A stretch of DNA of 40,800 nt from Erysipelotrichaceae bacterium (GTDB taxonomy: Bacteria; Bacillota_I; Bacilli_A; Erysipelotrichales; Erysipelotrichaceae): contig JAISTR010000023.1 of the NCBI GenBank assembly GCA_031272515.1, positions 1-40,800 of the forward strand. Direction: 5' to 3'. Positions 4,544 to 29,374 of the stretch are shown here, piece by piece. The notes below the pieces were generated by a model that searched no databases, was not told the DNA's origin, and saw only the letters and a program-made list of their open reading frames with translations. Both the position numbers and the translations under genes were made by a program. Positions within the stretch are counted from its first letter, which is position 1. Each line of letters opens with the position of its first letter.

Positions 4544-5956
4544 TCATTGCCCGCTGAGTGCTTTTTTCGCAAGATCAGAGGTCAGGGCGGGATTGGCTTT
4601 GCCTTGGGATTTCTTCATCACCTGACCTACCACAAAGCCCAGGGAGCGATCCTTCCCTGCCCGGTAATCCGCAATCAGCTGCGGGTTTTCCGCAAGCACT
4701 TCATCGATTAAGGACTGGATGAAGCCGGCATCGCTGACCTGCGTCATGCCTTTGCTTTTCACCACTTCCCCGGCATCCCTGCCCTCTAACAGCTGCGCAA
4801 AGACTTCCTTCGCCTGCTTGGAGGAGATGGTCTTGTTTTGGATCAAGTCAATCAGATCCGCCAGGGCTTTGGGTTTGAGTTTCAGGTCTGCCACCGGCAG
4901 GTTTTCCTTATTGCAATAGCCCAGGGTATCCACCAAGAGCCAGTTTGCGACCGCTTTGATTTGGTCGGTATACTGAATCGTTTCTTCAAAGAAGGCAGCC
5001 AAGGGCCGCTGGGAAACCAAAATCGCGGCATCGGTTTCTGACAAGCCCAACCCAACAAAGCGTTCCCGCTTGGCCTTCGCACTCTCCGGCATATTGTCCT
5101 GGATCTCTTTCAGCCATTTTTCTGACAGACGAATCGGAAAGATGTTGGGCTCCGGGAAATACTTGTAGTCCAGCGCCGTTTCCTTGGTCCGCATGGACTT
5201 GGTGGTCCGGGAGGCCTCATCAAAGCGGCGGGTCTCCTGAATCACGGATTTGCCACGCAGATAAAGTTCGCTTTGGCGCTCGCTTTCAAATTCGATGGCT
5301 CTCTCTATATTGGCCAGGGAGTTGAGGTTTTTGATCTCCACTTTCGTGCCAAAGCCGTCGTAGCCATAGGGGCGCAGGGAGATGTTGATGTCGCAGCGGA
5401 TGGAGCCTTCCTCCATCTTCGCATCGCTGACATCCAGGTACTCCAGAATCTCCCGCAGTTGGTTCACATAGTCAATTGCCTCCGCACTGCTGCGCAAGTC
5501 CGGTTCACTCACAATCTCCACCAGAGGCACCCCGGCCCGGTTGAAGTCCATCTCGGTCTTATCGGACAGGTGGAATTGCTTGGCGGTATCCTCCTCCATG
5601 TGGATGCGGTTGAGCCGCACCTTTTTGCCAGTTGACAGGGTGATATAGCCATGGGAGCCGATTGGATGAAACTGCTGGGTGATTTGATAGCCCTTGGGCA
5701 AATCGGAATAGTAGTAGTTCTTGCGGTCAAAGCGCACCAGGGTATCAATCTCGCAATGGCAGGCATAGCAAGCCAACAGGGCCTTGCGTACAGCCTCCTT
5801 GTTGACACAGGGCAAAGTCCCCGGATGGGCCAGGTCAATCTCATTTACGGCGCTGTTGGGGGCCTGGCCAAAGGTCACCGGCGCGCCGGAAAACATCTTG
5901 GTCGTGGTCTTGAGTTCACAGTGGATCTCAATGCCGATGATGACTTCAAAGTTCAT
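4544..5956 (-). CDS. gatB: Asp-tRNA(Asn)/Glu-tRNA(Gln) amidotransferase subunit B
   Basis: GatB is the tRNA-binding and kinase subunit of GatCAB. It phosphorylates the misacylated Glu-tRNA(Gln) or Asp-tRNA(Asn) and receives ammonia from GatA. The start MNFEVIIGIEIHCEL matches the conserved G-(L/I)-E-(V/I)-H motif; FRFDRKNYYYSDLPKGYQI and VPLVEIVSEPD are family hallmarks. The C-terminal YqeY-like helical tail ends in LGFVVGQVMKKSQGKANP, which contacts the tRNA elbow in known structures. The 470 residues are normal. The start overlaps the end of gatA by 11 bp, so translation is probably coupled. It is the last gene of the leftward block; its 3' end is followed by the next promoter at 4507. Confidence 0.97.
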   Translation of the reverse strand: MNFEVIIGIEIHCELKTTTKMFSGAPVTFGQAPNSAVNEIDLAHPGTLPCVNKEAVRKALLACYACHCEIDTLVRFDRKNYYYSDLPKGYQITQQFHPIGSHGYITLSTGKKVRLNRIHMEEDTAKQFHLSDKTEMDFNRAGVPLVEIVSEPDLRSSAEAIDYVNQLREILEYLDVSDAKMEEGSIRCDINISLRPYGYDGFGTKVEIKNLNSLANIERAIEFESERQSELYLRGKSVIQETRRFDEASRTTKSMRTKETALDYKYFPEPNIFPIRLSEKWLKEIQDNMPESAKAKRERFVGLGLSETDAAILVSQRPLAAFFEETIQYTDQIKAVANWLLVDTLGYCNKENLPVADLKLKPKALADLIDLIQNKTISSKQAKEVFAQLLEGRDAGEVVKSKGMTQVSDAGFIQSLIDEVLAENPQLIADYRAGKDRSLGFVVGQVMKKSQGKANPALTSDLAKKALSGQ

Positions 5957-16357: not shown

Positions 16358-16690
16358 TCAATCCTTTCTGAAAACCATGTTGTTTTCAAGCAGTTCTTGA
16401 AAGGTTACCGGTTGATAGTGATTGACTTCCACACATACATTCAAAGACTTGTCATGATTTCCCAGAATCAGATGTTTCTTGCCCTTGAGCCGGTCTAGAT
16501 ACACTTCCGGGTTTTGGGCAATGCGAAACATCAGGTCTCTCAGAATAAAGACCGTGTCTGAATTTGTGATACGTTTGTTGTAGTTGGCAATCAGTACTTC
16601 ATCCATTTCTGTGACATCCGCAAACGGACGGTCACAGAAACGGATGATGTTTTTATGGCCCAAATGTAAATCGGATGTGTAATAAACCAT
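16358..16690 (-). pseudogene. internally deleted metallophosphoesterase
   Basis: The 110-residue frame starts as a calcineurin-like phosphoesterase: MVYYTSDLHLGHKNIIRFCDRPF (motif I, D-x-H), then VFILRDLMFR where the metal-binding G-D box should be (here R-D), then HLILGNHDKS (G-N-H-D/E). After that it jumps straight to LNVCVEVNHYQPVTFQELLE, which is the C-terminal segment of the ~165-residue family. The middle ~55 residues, with the H...GHxH metal ligands, are absent without a frame change. With the G-to-R change this protein cannot bind its metals normally. ATG 16690 follows GAAGGAGACC. Formerly an operon with the nucleotidyltransferase downstream; such pairs occur together in other genomes from memory. 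Confidence 0.7.
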
Positions 16691-16855
16691 TGGTCTCCTT
16701 CAGGCAACTCCAACACATCTTCAAAAAGGAAGTGCAGTTGTCAATTCTGCTTGTTGATGTGGCCGCTTTGCCTCCTAAGTCTTAAACCATTATAAATGCT
16801 CCCACTTCAGAAGAAAACAGTAACCTCCTTATTAGAGAAACCTACTGTAACAATT

Positions 16856-16894
16856 TACTCAGTATACTGAGTATTTTGTAAAACATACTGAGTA
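16856..16894. promoter_or_regulatory. palindromic operator-like array before the ATPase at 16927
   Basis: TACTCAGTATACTGAGTA (16856-16873) is a perfect 18-bp palindrome. Its right half, ATACTGAGTA (16864-16873), recurs exactly at 16885-16894, 21 bp on, so the two sites lie on the same helix face. The second half-site covers the -35 region of the promoter at 16900. This is the form of a dimer-binding operator with an auxiliary half-site. Confidence 0.6.
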
Positions 16895-16899
16895 ATTTG

Positions 16900-16908
16900 T
16901 GTTAGAAT
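16900..16908 (+). promoter_or_regulatory. extended -10 promoter of the ATPase at 16927
   Basis: TGTTAGAAT at 16900-16908 matches the extended -10 with one mismatch; the -35 position (AAAACA, 16880-16885) is weak and overlaps the repeated half-site. ATCGGAGG at 16913-16920 serves ATG 16927. Confidence 0.5.
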
Positions 16909-16926
16909 AGATATCGGAGGTACAAC

Positions 16927-18105
16927 ATGTTTGAAAGAAAACTGGTGTCACAATTGGTGAATAGAATGCAGGAACCGCGCAAATTCATACAAATCGTGGA
17001 AGGCCCCAGGCAAACCGGGAAGACCACGGCAGTGCTGCAGGCATTAAATAAACTGGATATTCCCCAGCACTATGTCAGTGCCGATGACCCGACTCTGAAT
17101 TCTTTGGAATGGATCCGCAATGAGTGGCAAAGAGCCCGTTTACTATCAAAAGATGGCGATGCCATCCTGATTCTGGATGAACTGCAGAAAATAGAGAAAT
17201 GGTCTGAGATGGTGAAATTATTATGGGATGAGGACAGCCGCAATCATTGTCCTTTGAAAGTGATTATTACCGGATCCTCAGCCCTGTTATTAAAGAAGGG
17301 GATGAAAGAATCCCTGAAAGGCCGCTTTGAGGTGTTGTACTGTACCCACTGGAATTATCAGGAATGCAAAGACGCCTTCGGATACAGCCTGGACGATTTT
17401 TTGTTATTTGGCGGTTTCCCCGGAAGCAGTTCCCTAATTCAGGATGAGGAACGCTGGGTGTGCTATATGCGTGAAGCCATCATCAATCCAACACTCACCC
17501 AGGATGTCATGTTAATGGATGACATCCGTAAACCGGCATTATTGGATGCCCTATTCGCTTTGGGATCAATCTACAGCGGTCAGGAAGTATCCTACACAAA
17601 ACTCTTGGGGCAATTGCAGGATGTGGGCAATACCGTCACCTTAGCCCACTATCTTGACTTGTTAAGTGATGCTGGAGTAATAACCGGATTGCAGAAATAT
17701 GCCAATAGTCCAATATCTGTCCGCAAGAGCTCTCCGCGCTTGTTGGTCTATGACACCTCATTGATGAGCTATCACTACGGCACAAATCGCCGCAGCCTGC
17801 TGAATCATCCGGCAGAGCGGGGGCACTTGGTGGAAAGTGCGATAGGAGCTTATCTTTTGGCCAGGGGCAAAGAAGAGGGCTTTGGAGTGTATTGGTGGCG
17901 GGACCGGAGTGAAGAAGTGGACTTCGTAATTCAGAAAGGCTCATCTCTCACCGCCCTGGAAGTCAAGAGCGGCCGAATCAAGCATACCGGCGGAACCCTG
18001 TCCTTCAAATCCCGCTATCCCCATGCCCTCTCATTGATTATCGGCTCTTCTGATGTTTCAGTGGAAGATTTCCTTTTAGGAAAACAACCACTGTTTCTTG
18101 AATAA
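16927..18105 (+). CDS. AAA family ATPase with DUF4143 domain
   Basis: A 392-residue ATPase. Walker A is GPRQTGKTT (residues 26-34), Walker B is AILILDELQK near residue 80, and the sensor segment is VIITGSSALLLKKG. The WNYQECKDAFG...LLFGGFPGSS part and the winged-helix segment (YTKLLGQLQDVGNTVTLAHYLDLLSDAGVI) are typical of DUF4143. The C-terminus has EEVDFVIQKG...LTALEVKSGR, the D...E-x-K of a PD-(D/E)xK-like nuclease fold, so this member is complete, unlike the two relatives at the left end. ATG 16927 has a strong GGAGG. It is a single-gene unit with a palindromic operator. Biological role unknown; the family is often mobile and multi-copy. Confidence 0.88.
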   Translation: MFERKLVSQLVNRMQEPRKFIQIVEGPRQTGKTTAVLQALNKLDIPQHYVSADDPTLNSLEWIRNEWQRARLLSKDGDAILILDELQKIEKWSEMVKLLWDEDSRNHCPLKVIITGSSALLLKKGMKESLKGRFEVLYCTHWNYQECKDAFGYSLDDFLLFGGFPGSSSLIQDEERWVCYMREAIINPTLTQDVMLMDDIRKPALLDALFALGSIYSGQEVSYTKLLGQLQDVGNTVTLAHYLDLLSDAGVITGLQKYANSPISVRKSSPRLLVYDTSLMSYHYGTNRRSLLNHPAERGHLVESAIGAYLLARGKEEGFGVYWWRDRSEEVDFVIQKGSSLTALEVKSGRIKHTGGTLSFKSRYPHALSLIIGSSDVSVEDFLLGKQPLFLE

Positions 18106-20021: not shown

Positions 20022-20040
20022 ATTAGTGTTAGTAATACAG
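20018..20040. promoter_or_regulatory. palindromic operator, probably for the GntR regulator
   Basis: CTGTATTA (20018-20025) and TAATACAG (20033-20040) form perfect 8-bp half-sites 7 bp apart, over the -10/start region of the operon. YtrA-type GntR regulators usually repress their own operon from such a site. Confidence 0.65.
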
Positions 20041-29346: not shown

Positions 29347-29374
29347 AAAATCCCAGGCAGCTGCCTGGGATTTT
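29347..29374. terminator. bidirectional terminator between sulfatase and yjjI-like genes
   Basis: A perfect 28-bp palindrome: AAAATCCCAGGCAG (29347-29360) followed by its complement CTGCCTGGGATTTT (29361-29374), with T- and A-rich ends. It serves both convergent genes. Confidence 0.88.

Follow-up and report, generated by a model that had tools for sequence, protein, structure and literature searches.

A palindromic site that accompanies DUF4143 ATPase genes across phyla is probably the private operator of the encoded ATPase

The locus and the ATPase

The window, meaning the whole stretch of 40,800 nucleotides analyzed here, carries on its forward strand a DUF4143 ATPase gene of 392 amino acids (16927–18105), which is separated from a leftward 110-aa ORF (16358–16690) by a gap of 236 bp. 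Within this gap lies a 22-bp site (16854–16875, assigned to neither strand) with the half-sites TACTCA and TGAGTA in inverted order. Its 18-bp core, TACTCAGTATACTGAGTA (16856–16873), is an exact palindrome, and its right half recurs 21 bp downstream as a third half-site, TACTGAGTA, in the same orientation on the forward strand (16886–16894); both features had been claimed in an earlier sequence-only reading. The placement of the third half-site over a −35 region, claimed in the same reading, held only roughly: it lies just upstream of an extended −10-like sequence, TGTTAGAAT (16900–16908, forward strand), which was read by eye and is absent from a strict promoter scan that found no sigma-70 promoter. 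A Shine–Dalgarno-like GGAGG (16916–16920, forward strand) was also read by eye. No regulator gene adjoins the site among the seven ORFs scanned, the first regulator being a GntR ORF at 20026, with some small ORFs before this position lying outside the scan. A perfect palindrome of 18 bp is not remarkable alone, as the window has a second one at 29352; what gives the one at 16856–16873 its significance is conservation in relatives. A perfect 20-bp palindrome, longer than the one at 16856–16873, spans 29351–29370. The contig holds three DUF4143 loci, namely a broken copy with one in-frame stop and split ORFs (26–711), a full-length paralogue (1063–2265), and the window gene.

A Pfam profile search of the window protein gave matches above the cut-off to PF13635 and PF13173, and the protein combines AAA_14 with DUF4143. 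A PADLOC profile match (PDC-S01; E = 6.2e-162 to PDLC04791) makes it a defence candidate, and we take the PDC-S01 combination of DUF4143 and AAA_14 to be of the COG1373 type. Searches of PHROGs and NCBIfam gave no strong match (best E = 0.007, to a clamp loader, and 0.1, respectively), and the Pfam search linked the protein to no transposase or recombinase. A sequence search of the PDB returned designed armadillo repeats only, at E of about 0.03, which we took as chance.

The AAA+ domain (residues 1–150; 16927–17376, forward strand) has a Walker A motif from G26 to K32, a Walker B motif with D84 and E85, and R133, a candidate that may act as the arginine finger; G26, G31, K32, D84, E85, and R133 were present in all 76 aligned orthologues. 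The AlphaFold2 model (pLDDT 88.6) predicted three helices (203–215, 223–229, and 236–248) followed by a two-stranded wing (252–257 and 271–274) in residues 200–276 (17524–17754, forward strand). This is the order of elements of a winged helix-turn-helix (wHTH), which agrees with the earlier claim of a winged-helix-like region. A PD-(D/E)XK nuclease-like domain (residues 290–372; 17794–18042, forward strand) has D332, E345, and K347, conserved in 76, 75, and 73 of the 76 aligned orthologues, respectively, and the D...E-x-K motif was absent, by eye, in the relatives marked 'LIQVC' in the alignment. This domain was assigned from the motif, the secondary structure, and excerpts of PMC12988326 and not from a fold match, the structure matches mostly covering residues 1–319 and barely comparing the C-terminal part.

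The best structure matches were AAA+ proteins generally, not one-component repressors. VIA-align ranked 2qen (Z = 16.1) and 2fna (Z = 15.6) above 2qby (Z = 13.5), and the top Foldseek match was 2qby_A, a Cdc6/Orc1 protein on origin DNA, with an E-value of 1.8e-8 and a TM-score of only 0.29. The archaeal ATPases PABY2304 (2qen) and SSO1545 (2fna) have a fold in common with residues 1–285 (rmsd 3.3 and 3.6 over 258 and 253 aligned residues, respectively), whereas the window protein has an added PD-(D/E)XK-like domain; we know of no DNA sites of their own for these two proteins. CED-4 and the NLR proteins are more distant fold relatives than the archaeal AAA+ ATPases.

Conservation of the site in orthologues

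When the regions upstream of homologues were searched for inverted repeats, as the sequence-only reading had proposed, the lack of palindromes that it had named as counter-evidence did not occur. A site within five mismatches of the 22-bp consensus TTTACTCARTATAYTGAGTAAA was found in the 120 bp before the start codon in 45 of 75 orthologues (window gene included), and by the same criterion in 6 of 290 neighbour-gene controls. The other 30 orthologues had no consensus within five mismatches, and several of them had altered repeats when inspected by eye. The set of 75 included full-length relatives from plasmids, phages, and viral contigs and excluded fragments under 340–350 aa (L148–L151 and L195), one duplicate (L094, of L053), and L112, which has N in its upstream region. 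Start codons were picked by rule, and some upstream regions are possibly misplaced. The controls in this and the following tests were neighbouring genes at the same loci, a few of which may adjoin real arrays.

The genome scan yielded 24 relatives, the closest being those of two spirochaetes (61% identity) and three Bacteroidota (45–43%), and all five of these had the site before the start codon. Among 395 genomes of the phylum of the Sphingobacterium genome, 58 had matches at E ≤ 1e-30, and 76 loci were read after additions. Orthologues bearing the site span Spirochaetota, Bacteroidota, and Actinomycetota. The exact 18-mer occurs twice, 22 bp apart, at the orthologue on a Collinsella plasmid (48.5% identity), and adjacent promoter sites were 22 bp apart in all 28 orthologues that have two, compared with a spacing of 21 in the window. 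Relatives were contained in 217 plasmid records. In the plasmid, phage, and viral relatives inspected by eye (L152 and L192–L196), L194 had TGAGTA half-sites, and altered repeats were seen in L193 (TACTAG/CTAGTA), in L196 (TGCGTA), and also in L152 and L195. No clear site was seen by eye in the Thermus thermophilus copies. In the gene tree, the window gene grouped with those of the two spirochaetes and Collinsella (100/99), and Thermus grouped with one of the sequences drawn from Bacteroidota (100/100); these groupings indicated that gene and site cross phyla.

Repeats of other DUF4143 lineages and the domain that tracks them

Upstream repeats were also found in other DUF4143 lineages, where they differ from the site of the window; these, together with the sites on both sides of the gene and the lone sites described below, go beyond the sequence-only reading. 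A repeat with z > 3 in the 150 bp upstream was present in 21 of 53 diverse DUF4143 genes (window included) against 10 of 124 controls (Fisher, 1.6e-6), and in 29 of 69 close orthologues. The excess in the family is clear, though over half of the genes (32 of 53) fail the statistic and the sequences, being related, are not independent of one another. In the host genome 11 DUF4143 matches were found, and several of their upstream regions carry mutually different repeats by eye. One paralogue, L006, has its own palindrome, TTGCGGTTAGTAACCGCAA, which occurs genome-wide at three places within two mismatches, all flanking L006. Five other genes (L050, L073, L002, L003, and L005) are preceded by direct repeats of longer period and not by palindromes. 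Related DUF4143 genes on Enterococcus and Listeria plasmids are preceded by palindromes with a common core (L199, 2869–2904; L252, 2501–2534; L254, 2508–2541), whose outer arms differ yet are complementary (TTAGC/GCTAA, TACC/GGTA, and CAAC/GTTG, by eye). On the Enterococcus plasmids L254 and L255 the palindrome is kept before a truncated DUF4143 gene, and this stretch, about 255 bp long, matches at least 15 of the records listed.

Similarity of the upstream sites is matched more closely by similarity in the winged-helix domain than by that in the nuclease domain. In 59 of the 75 sequences, remaining after near-identical ones were thinned, the partial correlation of upstream similarity was 0.37 with the wHTH segment given the AAA+ domain (bootstrap, 0.21 to 0.52), 0.13 with the AAA+ domain given the wHTH (bootstrap, −0.04 to 0.29), and −0.18 with the nuclease domain given the wHTH. 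The wHTH outdid the AAA+ domain in 93% of bootstraps, which is not decisive, and none of 500 label permutations, which ignore relatedness, reached the wHTH correlation. In two lineages TGAGTA has changed to TGCGTA, and residue 237 is alanine (L117 and L196) or serine (L128) where relatives have valine or threonine. L105 (V237, TGAGTA) and L117 (A237, TGCGTA) have six differences in residues 200–276 and 45 over the protein, and A237 also occurs in L119 and L125, which have still other repeats.

Sites at both ends of the gene and gene-less loci

A shared match between the upstream and downstream regions with a score of at least 14 was found for 11 of 124 DUF4143 genes and for 1 of 209 controls. 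In seven of the 124 (L006, L044, L047, L114, L118, L120, and L192) the same site follows the gene too, within about 140 bp past the stop codon; the rest of the 11 (L063, L113, L097, and L117) had shared repeats other than the site and were left out of the seven. Loci lacking the gene were found as well. At pheT, the gene of G056 has a repeat on each side, and G051, whose pheT is 95% identical, carries a single repeat but lacks the gene; G049 has neither, but its right flank is different. At glnA, the gene of G300 lies between two arrays, and G479 and G478 show a single array but lack the gene; in G476 the gene is accompanied by one array, and G487 has a lone array, whereas no array was found beside glnA in G475, G358, and G495. 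At the locus of G337, the related G496 has neither array nor gene. For Thermus oshimai no clean empty site was found, as the two flanks lie in different places in the two matches inspected.

The arrays that flank the gene or stand alone show a unit with its site as the boundary, and they would fit either active movement or recombinational loss. It is possible, though on balance doubtful, that the arrays chiefly serve as the ends of a mobile element of one gene, whose protein would act on them to move or excise this gene, with a secondary role at the promoter. Besides the bracketed genes and the gene-less relatives that keep one repeat (G051 against G056; G479 and G478 against G300) or none (G496 against G337), this reading is favored by the plasmid copies of Enterococcus faecalis and Listeria seeligeri, which are about 80% identical and whose aligned stretch begins at the palindrome. 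However, most of the genes examined have the site upstream only, including the window gene, for which no downstream site was found; ordinary recombination between direct repeats would also leave one repeat; no target-site duplication was noticed in passing; and the G476 copy at glnA has diverged about as far as its flanks have, which points to loss and not to recent gain. More tentative still is the general form of the proposal, in which DUF4143/PDC-S01 genes could be unrecognised single-gene mobile units, the protein recognizing lineage-specific repeat arrays that serve both as operator and as the ends for gain and loss, leaving single-array footprints.

Rarity of the site

The rest of the window contained no other place within three mismatches of the palindrome (expected, 0.00), and the 2.13-Mb host genome contained the 18-mer at one place with up to three mismatches allowed, a reversed-pattern control also giving one chance place. 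The half-site TACTGAGTA had eight exact matches in the host genome, three of them at this locus, against six for the reversed control, so the half-site alone is not rare. Across six genomes, seven of the eight places within three mismatches were the promoter of this gene; the reversed control had five places, which is about chance at three mismatches, so the weight lies in the location and the low mismatch count, not in the number of places. The motif was thus not found genome-wide, which the sequence-only reading had named as a sign of an unrelated regulator.

That the palindrome is the site of an unlinked host regulator is quite unlikely, and the missing genome-wide sites are what tells against it. 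A looser pattern (one mismatch at most) gave at least 83 matches in 45 genomes against at least 33 for the reversed control, at least 37 of the 45 having a match, and some of the matches listed lie away from a DUF4143 gene; in G086 there are additional arrays near neighbouring genes. These matches would suit such a regulator, but the site is unique in the host genome, is kept with the gene in Spirochaetota, Bacteroidota, and Actinomycetota, and is replaced by different repeats before paralogues within one genome. Some of the looser matches are arrays without an intact gene: at L187 the apparent first codons of a lost gene copy are kept, and at L183 no gene copy was found within the stretch read. 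In L181, arrays of the same site occur at three places (2288–2331, 2711–2754, and 5306–5349) in about 3 kb, and two of these arrays bracket two neighbouring ORFs.

It is similarly improbable that the palindrome is an RNA element, a terminator or attenuator hairpin in the 5' leader. A terminator scan did pick out 16856–16873, scored as a stem followed by a T-rich tail (1 found against 0.2 expected), but L050 and L073 have direct repeats and no inverted ones, the third half-site is in direct order, and at the six central positions of the sites of 34 orthologues dyad symmetry was no greater than column composition predicts (56 pairs against 55.3 expected), although this test is weak, a hairpin loop needing no symmetry. 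Moreover, the sites lie, by eye, at or upstream of the likely promoter and so may not be transcribed. We give very little credence to an initiator-like role, in which the arrays would be iterons that an Orc1/Cdc6-like ATPase binds to open or replicate DNA, since the combination of AAA+ and wHTH that it has in common with Orc1/Cdc6 is found in many proteins and VIA-align prefers 2qen and 2fna to 2qby, even though the best Foldseek E-value belongs to 2qby, the arrays spaced by 22 bp and the direct repeats of other lineages resemble iterons, and relatives are recorded on plasmids.

Discussion

The site is probably the private operator of an autoregulating ATPase and is carried along with its gene. 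The palindrome moves with the gene across distant bacteria and some genes have the site at both ends, and it is thus most likely that the gene carries the site of its own protein. The palindrome and the extra half-site would be binding sites for the protein encoded by the gene that they precede, and the winged-helix segment of this AAA+/wHTH/PD-(D/E)XK ATPase would read TGAGTA half-sites about two helical turns apart. Bound over or just upstream of the promoter, the protein may control its own transcription, most likely by repression. The different sites of DUF4143 lineages would mean that paralogues in one cell need not cross-regulate, and operator and gene would be inherited and transferred together. 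The suggestion in the sequence-only reading that the ATPase regulates itself has gained partial support from the palindromes before homologues, from a motif that is not genome-wide, and from the tracking of the site by the wHTH segment; binding and an effect on transcription are what we infer from these relations among sequences, as are repression, the role of ATP, and any link to defence.

Insertion sequences have terminal repeats at both ends. The DUF4143 units resemble them in that the gene of some relatives is bracketed by the same repeat and a lone repeat is found where the gene is absent; they differ in that the repeat is usually at one end only and the protein has no Pfam match to a transposase or recombinase. 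A private operator carried with its gene would also resemble the autoregulating toxin-antitoxin modules, such as AbiE, which have an inverted-repeat operator of this kind according to excerpts of PMC7319586; here, by contrast, there is a single gene with no partner, and the ATPase/nuclease itself would be the putative reader.

The window protein is, by sequence, a member of the PDC-S01 group (DUF4143 plus AAA_14), which the excerpted parts of PMC12988326 describe as an ATPase fused to a PD-(D/E)XK domain and as the fourth most common prokaryotic defence system, with 9,986 archaeal and 29,494 bacterial detections, adding that most PDCs await experimental validation. According to the part of PMC13356809 consulted, no individual locus was more frequent in rumen genomes than PDC-S01, and an excerpt of PMC4406477 gives a DUF4143 gene of Thermus, TT_P0211, the value 6.6 in a table that belongs to a section on expression changes when plasmid DNA is present. 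The excerpts of the open-access literature on DUF4143, COG1373, PF13635, and PDC-S01 contained no mention of upstream or flanking repeats.

The private sites suggest a way in which a very common and unexplained 'defence' protein may be regulated and may spread. If the operator reading is true, the genome would supply, for many such genes, a substrate for binding, a promoter assay, and a specificity code, and a site readable in this way would make the function of DUF4143/PDC-S01 proteins directly testable. The bracketed genes and lone arrays raise the question of whether the abundance of these genes comes from defence, from mobility, or from both. If they proved to be mobile units, a 'defence' locus that ranks among the most abundant would be partly a selfish element, or else a mobile immune gene with its own address.
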